DNA of 64,000 bases from Armatimonadota bacterium (lineage in GTDB: Bacteria; Sysuimicrobiota; Sysuimicrobiia; Sysuimicrobiales; Sysuimicrobiaceae): assembly GCA_031432545.1 (NCBI GenBank), contig JAVKGX010000004.1, positions 1-64,000 on the forward strand, in the 5' to 3' direction. Each line of letters opens with the position of its first letter. Position 1 is the stretch's first letter. The notes beneath the pieces were generated by a model. That model saw only the letters and a list, made by a program, of their open reading frames with translations, ran no database searches and was not told the DNA's origin. The translations under genes and the position numbers were made by a program. Below are positions 23,016 through 29,757 of this stretch, in pieces.

Positions 23016-24365
23016 TCAGAACTCTGTCACCCCGGTGAACGTGAACTCGCTCACAGACAGCGCAGGCACGCGGACGCTGCCGAAACCCCCGGACAGCAGC
23101 CAGGTGTCGGCGCCGACCCGGTTGACCGCCGCCAGGGCCTGGACATAGCCCTGGGTGAACCGTAGGTTGCGTACCGGGTAGGCGATCTCCCCGTCCTCGA
23201 TCCAAAAGACGCCGTCGCGCGTCATGCCGGTGACGACACAGTCCCGGGGGTGCACCAGCCGCGTGTACCAGAACCGGGTCACATACAGTCCGCGCGACAC
23301 CTGCTGGACCATCTCCTCGATCGCGGCATCCCCGGCCGCCACGAACAGGTGCACCGGAAGCGGACCGAAGGCGGCGAACTCTGGCCACGCGCGCGGTACG
23401 GCGTGTCCCGTCGACCGCCGGCCTTCTTTGGCCGCCGTCGTCGTGTCGTAGACGGGCCCGACGGGTACACCGCGGTCCACGATCGTGACCCGCTCCTTGG
23501 GCACGCCCTCGTGGTCAAACGGCATCGGCAGCCCGGCGGTGTCGCAGCCGTCGTCGATGATCGTAATCCGCTCGGACATCGCCCGATCGCCCAACCGCCC
23601 GTTCATCCAGCTGCGGCCTTCCTGTACCGCCAGCGCGCCCATCCCGGAGAAGGCCAGGTGGCCGACGATATCCTGCACCGCGTACGGCTCCAGCACGACC
23701 GGGTAGGTCCCGGGCTCCACCGGTCGTGGCTGGCGGGCGCGCAGCGCCCTCTGTACCGCGGTGCGCGCCAGCCCCTCGAAGTCGAGGTCGTCGAGGCGCC
23801 ACGCCGCACGCTGTGCGTGCCCCGACGCACCGTCCTTCGAGATCACCAGGTTGAACCGCGCCCGCGTTCCGGCGTGGTAGCAGAACACACCGCGGGAGTT
23901 CGCGACCGCGACCTCGGCAATCCCTGCGCAGAGCGCGCCGGCAGCCATCGCACCGCTCGATTGGGCCAGGCGCAACACCTCGCGAACTCGCTCCGCGCGC
24001 CACCGGGCAGACGCGCCCGCTACGGCGTCGTCGAAGGCGCGGACCGGCTTTGGCGTCTGCGGTTCCGGCAGACCGGGAAAGTCCGCCGTCTCCGGCGCCA
24101 GGCGGGCCACCGATGTCGCCCGGTCGATCGCCCGGCCCAGCGCGTCGGCCATCGGCCGGTTGGTGATCGCAGACCCCAGGTGCCTGCCGACCGCGACGCG
24201 CACGGCGATGCTCACGTCGGTCTCCGCGACGTTCTGGTGGATCGTGTTGTTCGCAAAGCGCGTGAGCGCCTGGTCACCCGACAGGAGCACGACCTCGGTC
24301 TCGTCCGCCGGAGAACGGGCGATCGCGCTCGACAACAGCTCTCGGATCTTCGCCTCGCCCAGCAT
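23016..24365 (-). CDS. tldE: TldE/PmbA family metallopeptidase-like protein
   Basis: Protein of 449 residues, partner of TldD in the TldD/TldE protease that cleaves unfolded or ribosomally made peptides. It lacks the metal-binding HExxxH, as TldE proteins do. Seen: RFANNTIHQNVAETD near the N-terminus, then LPMPFDHEGVPKERV and, near the C-terminus, MTRDGVFWIEDGEI. The ATG at 24365 is one base after the tldD stop (TGACATG), so the two are translated in tandem and form the heterodimer. Confidence 0.92.
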   Translation of the reverse strand: MLGEAKIRELLSSAIARSPADETEVVLLSGDQALTRFANNTIHQNVAETDVSIAVRVAVGRHLGSAITNRPMADALGRAIDRATSVARLAPETADFPGLPEPQTPKPVRAFDDAVAGASARWRAERVREVLRLAQSSGAMAAGALCAGIAEVAVANSRGVFCYHAGTRARFNLVISKDGASGHAQRAAWRLDDLDFEGLARTAVQRALRARQPRPVEPGTYPVVLEPYAVQDIVGHLAFSGMGALAVQEGRSWMNGRLGDRAMSERITIIDDGCDTAGLPMPFDHEGVPKERVTIVDRGVPVGPVYDTTTAAKEGRRSTGHAVPRAWPEFAAFGPLPVHLFVAAGDAAIEEMVQQVSRGLYVTRFWYTRLVHPRDCVVTGMTRDGVFWIEDGEIAYPVRNLRFTQGYVQALAAVNRVGADTWLLSGGFGSVRVPALSVSEFTFTGVTEF

Positions 24366-24366
24366 G

Positions 24367-25839
24367 TCAGCGCTTCCCGAACACCCGCACGTTGCGGAAC
24401 CGCGCAGGCGCCGCGCCATGTCCTGTGTGGCCCACTTGCATGGGCTCGCCCTTCCCGCAGTTCGGCGTGCCCCACAGGACCCAATGGTCCGCGTTGCAGA
24501 CCGCATCGCACGAGCTCCAAAACTGCGGCGTCATCCCGGTGTAGATCGGGTTGCGCAGCATTCGGGTACGTCTTCCCCCCTTGATCTCCCAGGCGATCTC
24601 GCAACCGAACTGGAAGTTCAGCCGCCGGTCGTCGATGCTCCAGGACCGATTCGTGTCCATGAGGATCCCCTCGTCCGTATCCGCGATCAGGTCCTCCAGC
24701 CGCCACGTCCCCGCAAGCAAGTTGACGTTCGTCATGCGGATCATCGGGATCCGGTTCCACCCCGACGCCCGCGACGTCCCGTTGGATCGGCCGGTCGCCA
24801 GATCGCTGCGACCCACCGTACGGGCCAGTCGGCGGGCGCTCTCCCGATCCGTCAAGTAGCCGACGAACCGACCCTCCTTCACGATGTCGGTCCGCTGGGC
24901 CGGCACGCCCTCGTCGTCCCAGCCAAAGGTCCCCAGACCCCCCGGCAGCGTGGCGTCCGCGGTGATGTTGACGAACTCCGATCCGTAGCGGAACGTCCCC
25001 AGCTTGTCGGGTGTCAGAAAGGACGTGCCGGCAAACGCCGCTTCGTTCCCGAACACGCGGTCGAGCTCGATGGCGTGCCCGCACGACTCGTGGATCTGCA
25101 GCGCCACCTGGTTCCCGCTCAGGATCACCGTGGTCACGCCCTCTGGACACGGATCGGCGAACAGCAGTGCTACGGCCTCCTCGGCGATGCGCTCGGCGTT
25201 GCCCGGCAGGTCCCACTCCTCCACGAACTCCCACCCGCGCGTCTGCTGGTGGCGTCCGACCGAGTTCGGATAGGAGCGCCGCTGGACCTCGCCGTCTCCG
25301 ACCGCCGTCGCCTGGATCCCGCACCCGGACTCCACGATCTCCTGCTCGATCAGGCTGCCCTCCGTGCTGGCAAAGATTTTCCGCTGGCGGACAAACACCA
25401 TGCTCGCCTCGGTCGTCCGGACGCCGGCCACGCCACGCATCCCCGCGTCGGCACGCAGCAACACGTCGACTTTGCGCTCGACGGGAACCGAGAAAGGATC
25501 GACCTCGAACGGCGTACGATAGGTGCCGCGTTGGACGACCGGAGGGCCGATGTCGACGTCCTCGGTCTTGGTCAGCGCACTAGCCCTCGCGATCTGCACT
25601 GCGAGGTCGGCGACGCGTTCGGCCTCGTCTGGCTCGAGGCGGAAACTGGAGGCAAAACCCCAGGCACCGTCGGCGATCACGCGGACGCCGAAGCCGGTGT
25701 CCTCGGTCTGGCTGATCCCCTGGACGGCCCCGTTGCGGACGACGATGGTCTGCTCGGCGGTCTCGACCAGCCGAGCATCCGCATACGTCGCACCCTTGAG
25801 TTGCGCGATGTTTAGAGCCCTTGCCAGCAAGTCGTCCAT
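24367..25839 (-). CDS. tldD: TldD family metalloprotease
   Basis: Protein of 490 residues carrying the zinc-binding motif HExxxH as HESCGHAIE. The GFGVRVIADGAWGFA segment near the N-terminus and DTNRSWSIDDRR, NPIYTGMTPQFWSSCDAV and GTPNCGKGEPMQ near the C-terminus are family hallmarks. GGGAGG lies 5 bases before the ATG at 25839. It heads the tldD-tldE pair; in other bacteria the pair matures peptides such as microcins or CcdA, but no peptide precursor is seen nearby. Confidence 0.94.
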   Translation of the reverse strand: MDDLLARALNIAQLKGATYADARLVETAEQTIVVRNGAVQGISQTEDTGFGVRVIADGAWGFASSFRLEPDEAERVADLAVQIARASALTKTEDVDIGPPVVQRGTYRTPFEVDPFSVPVERKVDVLLRADAGMRGVAGVRTTEASMVFVRQRKIFASTEGSLIEQEIVESGCGIQATAVGDGEVQRRSYPNSVGRHQQTRGWEFVEEWDLPGNAERIAEEAVALLFADPCPEGVTTVILSGNQVALQIHESCGHAIELDRVFGNEAAFAGTSFLTPDKLGTFRYGSEFVNITADATLPGGLGTFGWDDEGVPAQRTDIVKEGRFVGYLTDRESARRLARTVGRSDLATGRSNGTSRASGWNRIPMIRMTNVNLLAGTWRLEDLIADTDEGILMDTNRSWSIDDRRLNFQFGCEIAWEIKGGRRTRMLRNPIYTGMTPQFWSSCDAVCNADHWVLWGTPNCGKGEPMQVGHTGHGAAPARFRNVRVFGKR

Positions 25840-25886: not shown

Positions 25887-26666
25887 TCATCCGGCCACAC
25901 GCCGGGCGACCGTGACGAACCCGGTATGGGCGACCATCCGGTGGACCGGCCGCACGCTCTGGCCTTCGAGATTCCAGGGCCGGACGAGCGTCTCGGTCGT
26001 CTCGATCAGCGCGAACGCACCCGAGGCCCGCAACGCCTCGGATGTCCGATGCGCCTGGAGCACGGTCGGCACGTACGACGCGAAGATCCCGCCCGCCGGC
26101 AAGGTCGCCGCGGCGTGCTCCACCACCCGCCAGGGCTCGGGCAGATCCAGGATGATGCGTTCCGCAGGCGCGTCCGGGATCCCTTCGTAGACGTCGTGGA
26201 TGCGCGCCACCAGACGATCCTGGGGCCCCAAGAACGCCTCGACGTTGCGCAAAGCGCGGCGTTGGAAGTCAGCCCGCACGTCGTACGTGAAGACCTTCCC
26301 CTGTGGTCCCACGGCCCGCAGCAACGCCATCGTCAGCGATCCGGATCCGGTTCCCGCCTCCACCACGGTCGCTCCGGGGTACACGTCGGCTGCCATCAGG
26401 ATCTGCGCCAGGTCCTTGGGATAGACGATCGTGGCCCCGCGGGGCATCTCCAGCACGTAGTCTGCGAGTGTAGGCCGCACGGCCAGGAAACGCTCGCCCG
26501 CCGATGTGCGCACGAACGTCCCCTCGTCGCGCCCGATCAGGTCGTCGTGCGCCAGGCGGCCCCGCAGGTCTTGGACCTTGCCGGCTTGGAGCGTGATCGG
26601 ATAGCTACGCCGGCGGCGGTCGATGAGCAGGACGAGGTCGCCGGCCTGCAGGGGGCCCGTGCGCAT
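25887..26666 (-). CDS. trmI: tRNA (adenine(58)-N1)-methyltransferase TrmI
   Basis: SAM-dependent enzyme of 259 residues that makes m1A58 in the tRNA T-loop. The N-terminal small domain is followed by QILMAADVYPGATVVEAGTG (SAM motif I about 93-110), LTMALLRAVG and the catalytic LDLPEPWRV (about 173-181). The ATG at 26666 overlaps the stop of the TtuA-type gene as TGATG, so the two are coupled. In Thermus thermophilus loss of m1A58 impairs 2-thiolation of T54, which makes the pairing with the upstream thiolase meaningful. Confidence 0.93.
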   Translation of the reverse strand: MRTGPLQAGDLVLLIDRRRRSYPITLQAGKVQDLRGRLAHDDLIGRDEGTFVRTSAGERFLAVRPTLADYVLEMPRGATIVYPKDLAQILMAADVYPGATVVEAGTGSGSLTMALLRAVGPQGKVFTYDVRADFQRRALRNVEAFLGPQDRLVARIHDVYEGIPDAPAERIILDLPEPWRVVEHAAATLPAGGIFASYVPTVLQAHRTSEALRASGAFALIETTETLVRPWNLEGQSVRPVHRMVAHTGFVTVARRVAG

Positions 26667-27655
26667 CAACGCTCGGCGGCCGACCGCGCGGGACCGACCG
26701 CAAAGACGTCCACCGCGTCTTCGCGGTCTTGGCCTGCGGCCGTGCGCACACGCATCCGCCGGGCCGCGCGCTCGGTCATCCGGCAGAAGGCGCACACCTC
26801 GGCGGTCGTCGGCTGGCCGCAGTGGACACACGAGCGCACCTCGGCGGGCTCCCGCTGGGCTCGAAGCAGTGGCCGCACCCGATCGAGGAAGTTCCAGTAG
26901 AGGTTCTGCTTGGTGCCGGGTGCCTGATGCTCCAGGAGGTTCAACGCTTCCTTCAAGAGCAGCGAACGCGCCCCGACGCTGTTGGGGCACTCTTCGAGGA
27001 TGTAGTCGATGCCGCGCAGCACCGCGTAGGCGGCGGTCTCGCGTTCGGCGATCCGGTACAGGGGCTTCACCTTCTTGACCAGCGCCGGGTGCGTGCTCTC
27101 CAGCACCGGCGACTGCCGCACGAGCGCGTCGACGTTGCCCGAGATCAGGTTGCCCAGCAGAACCGCAGCCTCGTCATCGAGGTTGTGGGCGGTGGCCACG
27201 ACGTCGAATCCCCGATCCAGGGCGAGCTTGTTGAACAGGTAGCGTTTGCTGAGCCCGCACGCAGAGCAAGACACGCGGCCCGTCGCCTCCGCCAGACCCT
27301 CCACGCCCACGCCGTACTCGGTGGGGATGTCGACGACGATCAGTTCTGCGCCGCGCACCGCCGCAAACGACGCCGCCTTCTCTTCCGACTCCCGCGAATA
27401 CTCGTGGATGCCCAGATTCAGGTGCAGTCCGGTCGCCTGGTAGCCGAACCGCAACAGGACGTCCCACAAAACCAGGCTGTCCTTGCCTCCCGACACCGCG
27501 ACCAGCACACGGTCGGCCCGGGTGAACATGCGTTCCCGCTCGATGGCGCGCCGGACCTGACTCTCGAACCACTCAAGAAAGTGGGGGCCGCAGAACGCCG
27601 CGTGATGTCGGCGCACCTCGACGGAAGCGGTCGCCCTGCAGGTGGTGCAGCGCAT
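26666..27655 (-). CDS. ttuA: tRNA-5-methyluridine(54) 2-sulfurtransferase, TtuA type
   Basis: ATP-dependent tRNA thiolase of 329 residues. Seen: N-terminal zinc-binding CxxC (C3, C6) with C22 and H25; PP-loop SGGKDS (55-60); cluster cysteines C130 and C133 (SCSACGLSKRYL) and C223 (EECPNS), almost the positions reported for T. thermophilus TtuA; C-terminal zinc pair C276/C279 and C288/C291. TtuA makes s2T54 in the T-loop, a heat-stabilising modification typical of thermophiles. A TtcA (s2C32) role is less likely because of the two zinc fingers and the adjacent sulfur-carrier and trmI genes. ATG 27655 overlaps the upstream stop as TGATG; GGAGG is 5 bases before it. Confidence 0.92.
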   Translation of the reverse strand: MRCTTCRATASVEVRRHHAAFCGPHFLEWFESQVRRAIERERMFTRADRVLVAVSGGKDSLVLWDVLLRFGYQATGLHLNLGIHEYSRESEEKAASFAAVRGAELIVVDIPTEYGVGVEGLAEATGRVSCSACGLSKRYLFNKLALDRGFDVVATAHNLDDEAAVLLGNLISGNVDALVRQSPVLESTHPALVKKVKPLYRIAERETAAYAVLRGIDYILEECPNSVGARSLLLKEALNLLEHQAPGTKQNLYWNFLDRVRPLLRAQREPAEVRSCVHCGQPTTAEVCAFCRMTERAARRMRVRTAAGQDREDAVDVFAVGPARSAAER

Positions 27656-27927
27656 CAAACCCTCCGCCGGCGAGTCGGCATCCGGACGCGGGGCCGCGAT
27701 GTCATCCCCCCACCGCCCGGGGTCCGATCCCGCCCGCCACCCGACACCACCGGCCGGATCTCGACCTCGTCGTCCGGGCTGAGCACCGCGTCTGCGGTCA
27801 GCAACTCGCCGCCGCGAATGACGATCACCGTCTCCGGGTTGAGGTCGAGTTCACGCAACATCTCCCGGACCGAGCGCGGCCCCTGTAGGGCGACGTACCG
27901 GCGCTGGTGGCCAATGTGGACCTTCAC
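27655..27927 (-). CDS. ttuB: ThiS/MoaD-type ubiquitin-like sulfur carrier (TtuB-like) with a C-terminal extension
   Basis: Protein of 90 residues. Residues 1-62 have the beta-grasp pattern with VREMLRELDLNPETVIVIRG and DDEVEIRPVVSGGG. Sulfur carriers are thiocarboxylated on a terminal diglycine; here GG (63-64) is followed by about 25 more residues, rich in Arg and including a second Gly run (PGGGG, 70-74). It would therefore need trimming, or uses a different end. It overlaps ttuA, so it is very likely the sulfur donor for T54 thiolation. The GTG at 27927 lies only 6 bases after a TATCAT -10-like sequence, so the mRNA may be leaderless. Confidence 0.82.
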   Translation of the reverse strand: MKVHIGHQRRYVALQGPRSVREMLRELDLNPETVIVIRGGELLTADAVLSPDDEVEIRPVVSGGGRDRTPGGGGMTSRPRVRMPTRRRRV

Positions 27928-27999: not shown

Positions 28000-29757
28000 T
28001 CACGGGTCGGCGTAGAGCCGTTCACCGCGGTGCAGTCGGTGCGCGATCTGGAACGTCTGTCCCTGCGAACGCATCGTCGGCGCGTGGGCCGCCAGGTAGC
28101 GCGCCGCGGCGATCAGGACGTGCGCACCCGCGGGTGTGTTGCCCAGGTGGCGGAACTGGCGGAAGGCTGCCTCGATCATCTGCACCGTGTGAAAGTCGCG
28201 GTCCTCTCGCAGGAGCAACGCGCCTAGGGCGGCCAGCAGTCGGCCCGGCGCCCCGCCGCTGGCGAGGTAGTCCGCGACCAGCGCGCCCGCCTCGTCCACC
28301 TGTTGCTGGCGGTCCAGCACATCCGCCAGCTCGCGCAGGAGGCCTTCGGGGTCCTGCACCCGCGCCGGTTCGGGCAGCCGCGCCGGCGGCACGTTGAGGA
28401 AACGGTCCAGGTAGACGCTCATCGCCGCATCGAACACGCCCCGCAGCAACGCCGGCGGATCCTCGGTCGAATCTCCGTCCAGGCGGCGCAGTCCCTGCTC
28501 GACCGCGTTGGCGAACGTGAAGGTGTGAAGCGCCGTATCCCAGTCGCTGAATTCGTTGCTTCTGGCGAAGTGCGCGACCCGCAGCGCCGCGGCATAGCTC
28601 ACCGCGGCGGCGAGCTCGACGGCGGTCGCTCCCTGCCGAAGTCCGTCCACCAGCGCGTCTGCGATGGCCTGCGGATCGTGACCAAGGAGGATCGGGACGA
28701 GCGCTTCGCGGCCCGACCAAGAACCCCGCTTGGACCTGCCGGCGGGCGCGGCGTCGGGGATCACCTCGAAGGCCGCCTCGACGACCTCGACCAGGTCGAT
28801 CGGGTGACGCCAAGCGTTGGATTCCTCCATCCTCTCAGCCTGCGCGTAGCCGGGCGCGAGGCTGCCCAGAACGGGTTCCGCAAACTCCCACCCGGCCAGG
28901 TCCAACGCCTCGAGGGCCTTGTTCGTGAAGTCCAGCAAGTGCCCGCCTGCGGCGTACCGGTGGTCGGTCGCGGCCGCGAACAGCATGTCCGCGATCTGCC
29001 GCGCGCCCGCCCCCGCCCGCACCGCCGACACGATGCACCGTTCCGCGCCCTCCGCGTCCCGCACCTCCACGAACCGCCGAAACCACCGCCGCAGCGCCGC
29101 AACATCGGCCGGCTGACCGGGGAGCGGACGGACGCCGTGGCGCGGCGGGCTGCCCGCGCAGTCCACGGCCACGTGCGACAGGCCGTGGTACAATGCCCGC
29201 GCCCGGTCCTCGGGGTAGAGGCAGAAGATCAGGTTCATCAAACAGGCGAGCGTCGTCAGCCCACGACCCCATCCGGTTTCCCGATGCCGCGCGCCGAACT
29301 CCAGCCCGATGCGGAAGGGCTCGGCCGCGTCCTCGCCTGCGGCCAGCAGGCCGATCACCGCCTTAGCGATCACCAGGTTCAGTCCCCGCTCCAGTCCGTC
29401 CCGCAGTCTGGTCCGCTGATGGGTGACTGCGTCCTGGCGTGGCGAGACGTCCACCCACACCTCGCCATCCCGGACTTCCACCGGAAAGGTACGCACGTCA
29501 TCGGCCCACAGGTCGAAGGTACCGCCGGTGGCGAGGTCAAACCGGGCGTGGTGCCAGTGGCACGTCAGGATCCCGTCGTGCACCGAGCCGCGATGCAATG
29601 GAAAGCCCATGTGCGGGCAACGGTTGTCCACCGCGTAGATGCGGCCCTGGTGCGCGAACAGGGCGACGGTGTGCCCGGCCACCGCGACCGCCAGACAACC
29701 GGCGCGCTGCACCTCCTCCAGCCGCGCCGCCCGTGTGAACCCTCCTGCCGAACCCAT
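28000..29757 (-). CDS. Rieske 2Fe-2S domain fused to a large uncharacterised helical domain
   Basis: Protein of 585 residues. Residues about 10-108 form a Rieske domain with both cluster motifs intact: C47-P-H49 (NRCPHMGFPLHRG) and C66-H-W-H69 (LTCHWHHARFD). The remaining about 470 residues are predicted mostly helical, rich in Ala, Leu and Arg, with no motif I recognise; it has conserved-looking His segments (RYAAGGHLLDF, SNEFSDWDTALHTF). There is no signal peptide or membrane span, so it is cytosolic, unlike bc1-type Rieske proteins. Possibly an oxidoreductase or regulator. GGAGG is 7 bases before ATG 29757. It stands alone between the ttu operon and the aminotransferase. Confidence 0.75.
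   Translation of the reverse strand: MGSAGGFTRAARLEEVQRAGCLAVAVAGHTVALFAHQGRIYAVDNRCPHMGFPLHRGSVHDGILTCHWHHARFDLATGGTFDLWADDVRTFPVEVRDGEVWVDVSPRQDAVTHQRTRLRDGLERGLNLVIAKAVIGLLAAGEDAAEPFRIGLEFGARHRETGWGRGLTTLACLMNLIFCLYPEDRARALYHGLSHVAVDCAGSPPRHGVRPLPGQPADVAALRRWFRRFVEVRDAEGAERCIVSAVRAGAGARQIADMLFAAATDHRYAAGGHLLDFTNKALEALDLAGWEFAEPVLGSLAPGYAQAERMEESNAWRHPIDLVEVVEAAFEVIPDAAPAGRSKRGSWSGREALVPILLGHDPQAIADALVDGLRQGATAVELAAAVSYAAALRVAHFARSNEFSDWDTALHTFTFANAVEQGLRRLDGDSTEDPPALLRGVFDAAMSVYLDRFLNVPPARLPEPARVQDPEGLLRELADVLDRQQQVDEAGALVADYLASGGAPGRLLAALGALLLREDRDFHTVQMIEAAFRQFRHLGNTPAGAHVLIAAARYLAAHAPTMRSQGQTFQIAHRLHRGERLYADP

Follow-up and report, generated by a model that had tools for sequence, protein, structure and literature searches.

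TtuB-type sulfur carriers act through their C-terminus. The last glycine of TtuB is adenylated and thiocarboxylated (PMC3980101), and the TtuB C-terminus coordinates the unique iron of the TtuA [4Fe-4S] cluster (PMC9821441). In the window analyzed here (64,000 nt; Armatimonadota bacterium GCA_031432545.1, contig JAVKGX010000004.1, positions 1-64,000, from a draft genome in 21 contigs) a ttuB gene runs on for 26 codons beyond those of its diglycine. Because thiocarboxylation and iron binding are impossible with residues attached, the protein can be a carrier only if this tail is taken off.

The ttuB-ttuA operon and the encoded tail

The gene belongs to a minus-strand operon, whose features and downstream neighbors are the following:

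27655-27927, minus strand: putative pro-TtuB coding sequence, 90 aa, GTG start at 27927, TGA stop at 27657-27655
27736-27927, minus strand: TtuB core, residues 1-64, ending in RPVVSGG (alignment of 21 orthologues; AlphaFold2 beta-grasp)
27736-27741, minus strand: codons GGT GGC of the functional diglycine, position invariant; cleavage predicted after residue 64
27658-27735, minus strand: C-terminal tail GRDRTPGGGGMTSRPRVRMPTRRRRV, 26 codons, lineage-specific, predicted disordered
27660-27665, minus strand: GGAGGG within the tail codons, likely the ttuA Shine-Dalgarno by consensus match
26666-27655, minus strand: ttuA, tRNA 2-thiouridine(54) synthetase (PF22082 and PF01171 over cut-off)
25887-26657 (start approximate), minus strand: trmI-like tRNA m1A58 methyltransferase, same operon (PF08704 and PF14801)
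24367-25839, minus strand: TldD-type metallopeptidase (PF01523/PF19289/PF19290)
23016-24506 (start approximate), minus strand: TldE/PmbA-type partner of TldD (PF19289, 162.8 bits)

The open reading frame at 27655-27927 is a TtuB orthologue. Its core falls in the ThiS family (PF02597, 30.4 bits with a cut-off of 22.5), the first PDB match of a profile of 21 relatives is a pair of Thermus TtuB chains (67 bits), and the top Foldseek matches of the predicted structure are the TtuB chains 5ztb and 5gha, with a TM-score on target of 0.81-0.88. Since the profile extends to the final residue of the Thermus chains, or to the one before it, GG is where Thermus TtuB ends. The window protein reads ...EIRPVVSGG up to residue 64, with GG at 63-64, followed by GRDRTPGGGGMTSRPRVRMPTRRRRV and the stop, and the diglycine is thus not its encoded C-terminus. 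The first-pass annotation had described a TtuB-like carrier with an internal diglycine here, which the reading frame, the ThiS and TtuB matches and the 26 codons after GG bear out; the VVSGGG motif that it placed at residues 61-65 is present but occupies 60-65, and PGGGG follows at 70-74. In the AlphaFold2 model the core forms a beta-grasp with pLDDT ~78-93, while the tail, at pLDDT 56-66 and with no secondary structure, is predicted to be disordered.

The gene downstream carries the LIM and PP-loop domains of TtuA and matches Thermus TtuA 5b4e with 353 bits. The TGA of ttuB and the ATG of ttuA have one A in common (TGATG), and the GGAGGG sequence lies 5-10 nt ahead of this ATG, inside the ttuB tail codons; the proposed overlap of the tail with the ttuA ribosome-binding site is therefore supported in the window species. 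A trmI-like gene adjoins ttuB-ttuA in 41 of the loci checked. TrmI methylates A58 and TtuA thiolates U54, and since both positions are in the tRNA T-loop, ttuB-ttuA-trmI makes sense as a tRNA-stabilizing unit. Directly downstream of this unit lies the tldD-tldE (pmbA) metallopeptidase pair (window 23016-25839, minus strand). The gene upstream of ttuB (window 28000-29757, minus strand) encodes a Rieske domain and then a long region with no confident Pfam assignment.

What follows the diglycine in other sulfur carriers

We sampled 43 genomes of the phylum, 22 of them with TtuA, and took in the 21 with readable upstream DNA. In all 21 loci ttuB is directly upstream of ttuA or joined to it, and in the alignment of these orthologues S62, G63 and G64 are invariant. 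Nineteen of the loci, including one fusion, continue past S-G-G. No residue follows GG in two species of one genus (sister genus g3), two residues follow it in seven loci, and the longer tails have 5, 7, 7, 8, 9 (four times), 25, 26 (the window) and 54 residues; in genome G007 there is no stop after GG and TtuB runs in frame into TtuA. Orthologues lacking any tail, a case raised in the first-pass annotation, do exist, namely these two among the 20 other phylum members, but in the remaining 18 GG is followed by 2-54 aa or, in the fusion, by TtuA.

In the nearest relatives the ttuB stop lies either immediately after GG or a few codons into ttuA. Since the window tail has no match among the 20 other TtuBs of the phylum, it is recent and probably not conserved as a peptide. 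Congruently, the suggestion that the tail was recently added holds for the window species, as no relative shares it and the sister genus has a stop at GG. We found no tail sequence shared across relatives in the phylum, in a further scan of 80 loci or in 115 Acidimicrobiia loci, and with no such common sequence the tail was rejected as a conserved domain. Once GG is no longer followed by a stop, a length of 26 residues is unremarkable: with 69% GC in the window, 26 codons would be free of stops with a probability of ~0.60.

The 80 loci came from scanning named genomes (Nitrospirota, Actinomycetota, Acidobacteria, Rokubacteria and others), and the 115 from 296 searched genomes of the Acidimicrobiia, the class of one actinobacterial match. 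In Nitrospira defluvii (L102), for example, TtuB continues past GG with the two residues SV. Together with the phylum this gave 216 TtuB loci, about 209 of them distinct, as a few species occur twice. Only 68 of the 216 end at GG, and a GG at the encoded end does not define the TtuB family; 103 loci have 1-3 extra residues, 29 have 4-19, 12 have 20-64 and four are fusions, so that tails of 1-64 residues are present in 144/216. The position of GG is invariant in the 115 Acidimicrobiia loci. One of these, L220, has a 55-residue tail with an internal duplication (SGASVRSLTEVQPRSTD... repeated), which illustrates one way in which tails may lengthen.

The four in-frame TtuB-TtuA fusions are:

L019:1306-2451, window's own phylum (G007)
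L088:3001-4140, Acidobacteria MAG
L097:3001-4146, Actinomycetota MAG
L144:2974-4080, Actinomycetes MAG

TtuA domains follow GG in all four. Three have a ThiS match (L019 and L097 exceed the cut-off, and L088 narrowly misses it), and the L144 fusion was picked up with the TtuB profile. No ATG, GTG or TTG occurs between GG and the TtuA Cys-x-x-Cys zinc motif in any of them, and the lack of a start codon at the junction indicates that each is made as one chain. AlphaFold2 modeled the G007 fusion as two folded domains with S-G-G (62-64) between them, in one of the few stretches where pLDDT drops under 50. Neither the spread of TtuB tails nor the TtuB-TtuA fusions appear to have been described: we found no description of either in the searchable literature, although subscription journals may hold one, and the accessible text of PMC9821441 makes no mention of a TtuB-TtuA fusion.

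The arrangement of ttuB and ttuA suggests a reason for the shifting position of the stop. The commonest layout, found in 52 of the 139 loci with ttuA within 20 nt, places the ttuA start 5 nt past the GG codons, and the ttuB stop then overlaps ttuA and adds exactly two residues. The sequence GGAGG lies in the two glycine codons in 51/139 loci with ttuA within 20 nt vs. 13/77 (p = 0.003), a real but partial effect of these codons serving as the ttuA Shine-Dalgarno. Because the close layout adds two residues and GGAGG is enriched in the glycine codons, tails may be in part a by-product of ttuB-ttuA coupling. The window gene (GGT GGC) does not use its GG codons in this way and carries GGAGGG in the tail instead.

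TtuB is one of three ThiS-fold carriers in the genome, and the other two also have an internal GG. One is part of a MoaD-MoaE fusion (L001:1057-1728), and the other, a CysO-like carrier, ends in AMAGG-ARRPPVGVLP, with 10 residues after GG. What the first-pass annotation had missed is that TtuB in the window's phylum and in the Acidimicrobiia usually has its GG in an internal position, that this reaches as far as fusions, and that the other two carriers are alike in this respect. Elsewhere in the phylum we observed further MoaD-MoaE and ThiS-ThiG fusions with an internal GG (L148, L147 and L163) and, in two genomes, a CysO-like carrier joined via AMAGG to a CBS-domain cysteine synthase (L146:64-1755 and L154:25-1761). 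MoaD-MoaE and ThiS-ThiG are kinds of fusion already described in 2006 (PMC1779556).

Proposed maturation of the carrier and competing explanations

We propose that the ribosome would make all 90 residues and that the bond after Gly64 would then be cut, exposing the diglycine and making the carrier active. The exposed diglycine would be adenylated by the single E1-like enzyme of the genome (ThiF family, 271 bits), thiocarboxylated, and passed to TtuA for the 2-thiolation of U54. The cutter would most likely be a JAMM (Prok-JAB) metalloprotease whose gene lies in another part of the genome, next to those of the CysO-like carrier and two cysteine synthases, and the same JAMM would free MoaD from MoaD-MoaE and remove the extra residues of the CysO-like carrier. 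With a terminus made by cutting, the stop codon could drift freely: selection on it would be relaxed, it would sit where coupled ttuA translation wants it, and tails of any length could arise, with TtuB in frame with TtuA as the limit case. In the window species, an ~80-nt leader bearing the ttuA Shine-Dalgarno would have turned into the tail. We consider it probable that TtuB is made as a precursor and trimmed after GG by JAMM, its stop being thereby free to drift. That the tail is removed by some means is very likely, and JAMM is a moderately likely agent.

A search of the genome for a JAMM-type protease returned one clear candidate (G000 C6 20064-20390; PF14464, 92.3 bits). It bears the metal-site motif HSHP...PSxxD and matches JAMM1 of Pyrococcus (PfJAMM1, from the JAMM1-SAMP2 complex) with 54 bits. 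The gene is not near ttuB; the row of genes to which it belongs also encodes the CysO-like carrier, two PLP cysteine-synthase-type proteins and one Cys/Met PLP enzyme. JAMM is present in 40/41 genomes of the phylum, and its deletion in Thermus thermophilus perturbs TtuB conjugates and lowers tRNA thiouridine to half (PMC3980101). Ala or Ser occupies the first tail position in 46/53 diverged Acidimicrobiia representatives, compared with 9/53 at the second position, a bias that would fit a protease P1' pocket wanting a small residue; CsRpn11 shows steric limits of such a pocket (PMC6043591). The window's phylum lacks this preference: D, H, I, W and E are among its first tail residues.

Across the genomes compared, the presence of JAMM did not predict tails. 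Among the Acidimicrobiia, tails are present in 80/102 genomes with JAMM and 10/13 without (p = 1), and in a mixed set of 50 genomes with TtuB the figures are 27/40 and 4/10, a weak trend (p = 0.15). With JAMM nearly universal and the genomes being drafts, these comparisons say little about the mechanism. JAMM is commoner in Acidimicrobiia with TtuB than in those lacking it (102/115 vs. 126/181, p = 0.0001), a co-occurrence that is confounded because many of the latter have reduced genomes of ~1 Mb. No JAMM match was found in the Acidobacteria genome with a TtuB-TtuA fusion (G060) or in one with a MoaD-MoaE fusion (G014, 97% complete), in a set of mostly draft genomes; either these genomes are incomplete or another protease is used, and the absence still counts against JAMM. 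The suggestion that the protein is a pro-form that is cut agrees with the conservation of GG and the part before it, with the 0-64 residues or whole TtuA that follow, and with a JAMM that has its active-site motif, but gains nothing from the distribution of JAMM, and the cut itself is predicted from these features. Precursor and recent tail are not exclusive readings: in general there is good support for the former, and for the window sequence the latter is right.

Trimming by another enzyme, either carboxypeptidases for the common tails of 1-3 residues or the TldD/TldE pair, is on the whole unlikely. The TldD/TldE family acts on unstructured peptides, and the tails are predicted to be unstructured; moreover, TldD and TldE domains over the Pfam cut-offs lie in the same gene row, two and three genes past ttuA, and tails are present in some genomes with no JAMM match. 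This pair is the main alternative to JAMM. However, TldD is beside ttuA in no other locus examined, some of them with 3 kb flanks, and a carboxypeptidase cannot part folded TtuA from TtuB, or MoaE from MoaD. The JAMM precedents, by comparison, cut exactly after GG (PMC6043591).

It is quite unlikely that the tail stays on, with a TtuB that is inactive or otherwise used (e.g., as a structural partner of TtuA) while the CysO-like protein or another carrier feeds TtuA. The genome does offer three ThiS-fold carriers, and processing after GG is deduced rather than seen; yet both other carriers have an internal GG as well, so none would be active, and S-G-G is invariant in every tailed TtuB and every fusion, which is unexpected for a dead terminus. 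These same two observations make it unlikely that the protein is not a carrier.

A functional tail, acting as a basic nucleic-acid-binding extension or carrying in PGGGG the true end of the protein, is very improbable: 5/10 of the last residues are Arg and the tail has a second run of four glycines, but nothing like this tail was found on any other TtuB sampled, and PGGGG as the true terminus was rejected by the alignment, in which the first GG lines up with that of every orthologue, Thermus TtuB among them. Least credible is a sequence or assembly error hiding a true stop just after GG, as envisaged in the first-pass annotation. The draft is in 21 contigs and the tail is G-rich, with six consecutive G, but none of the single-base deletions tried around the junction shortens the part after GG to fewer than 10 residues, and every single-base insertion abolishes the ttuB stop and opens the frame into ttuA. 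No single indel can thus restore a stop near GG, and tails and fusions recur across many independent assemblies.

If a JAMM-trimmed precursor is the correct reading, several consequences would follow. In several bacterial phyla ttuB genes usually continue past the GG codons, in the extreme as a TtuA fusion, and the annotation rule that ThiS-fold proteins have GG at their encoded end would need to change once JAMM maturation is confirmed; one protease would then control several sulfur pathways at once. The broadest form of this idea, that in this phylum and several others one JAMM is obligatory for all ubiquitin-fold carriers (TtuB, MoaD, ThiS and CysO-like), which would be made either as precursors or joined to the enzymes that accept their sulfur, and that it jointly gates the thiolation of tRNA and the synthesis of molybdopterin, thiazole and cysteine, is tentative and may well prove too wide. 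Were it true, JAMM gating would correspond in bacteria to the maturation of ubiquitin, and TtuB-TtuA would be a previously undescribed self-delivering fusion. The sulfur carriers are the prokaryotic ancestors of ubiquitin, and TtuB doubles as a protein modifier in Thermus; the tails bear on whether precursor maturation was anciently shared. The natural tails are a ready comparative set for the cleavage preference of JAMM.

Comparison with known systems

Among the closest known systems is the TtuA/TtuB/TtuC pathway of Thermus thermophilus, which likewise has a beta-grasp carrier that works with TtuA in the 2-thiolation of U54, an SGG end, a single E1-like enzyme and a JAMM. The PDB chains of Thermus TtuB end at GG, whereas the window TtuB has 26 further residues that would have to be trimmed. 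In the QbsE and HcyS carriers, one or two residues after GG are removed by a JAMM protease. These resemble the present case as bacterial sulfur carriers that lose a short tail and are partnered with a JAMM; their JAMM is in the same operon, and they serve siderophore or amino-acid sulfur chemistry.

In Caldiarchaeum, CsJAMM cuts SAMP precursors and CsRpn11 cuts the ubiquitin precursor, in both cases exactly after GG (PMC6043591). Here too a ubiquitin-fold protein has residues after GG and JAMM-type processing, but the archaeal work is experimental and concerns fixed proteins, whereas our processing step is predicted and the tails vary freely across a bacterial family. For bacteria, Iyer et al. 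(2006) predicted that JAB proteins free the carrier C-terminus from ThiS-ThiG and MoaD-MoaE fusions; the available text of that study (PMC1779556) contains neither TtuB-TtuA nor CysO-like/cysteine-synthase fusions, nor the broad variety of tails that are not enzymes. The MoaD-MoaE fusion of Deinococcus, cut by DRJAMM (PMC8832034), is similar in that a carrier is fused via GG to the enzyme that receives its sulfur, and the window genome has a MoaD-MoaE fusion as well. The pair described here is that of tRNA thiolation, TtuB-TtuA, and not molybdopterin synthase, and in the window TtuB bears a tail and not a fused enzyme.
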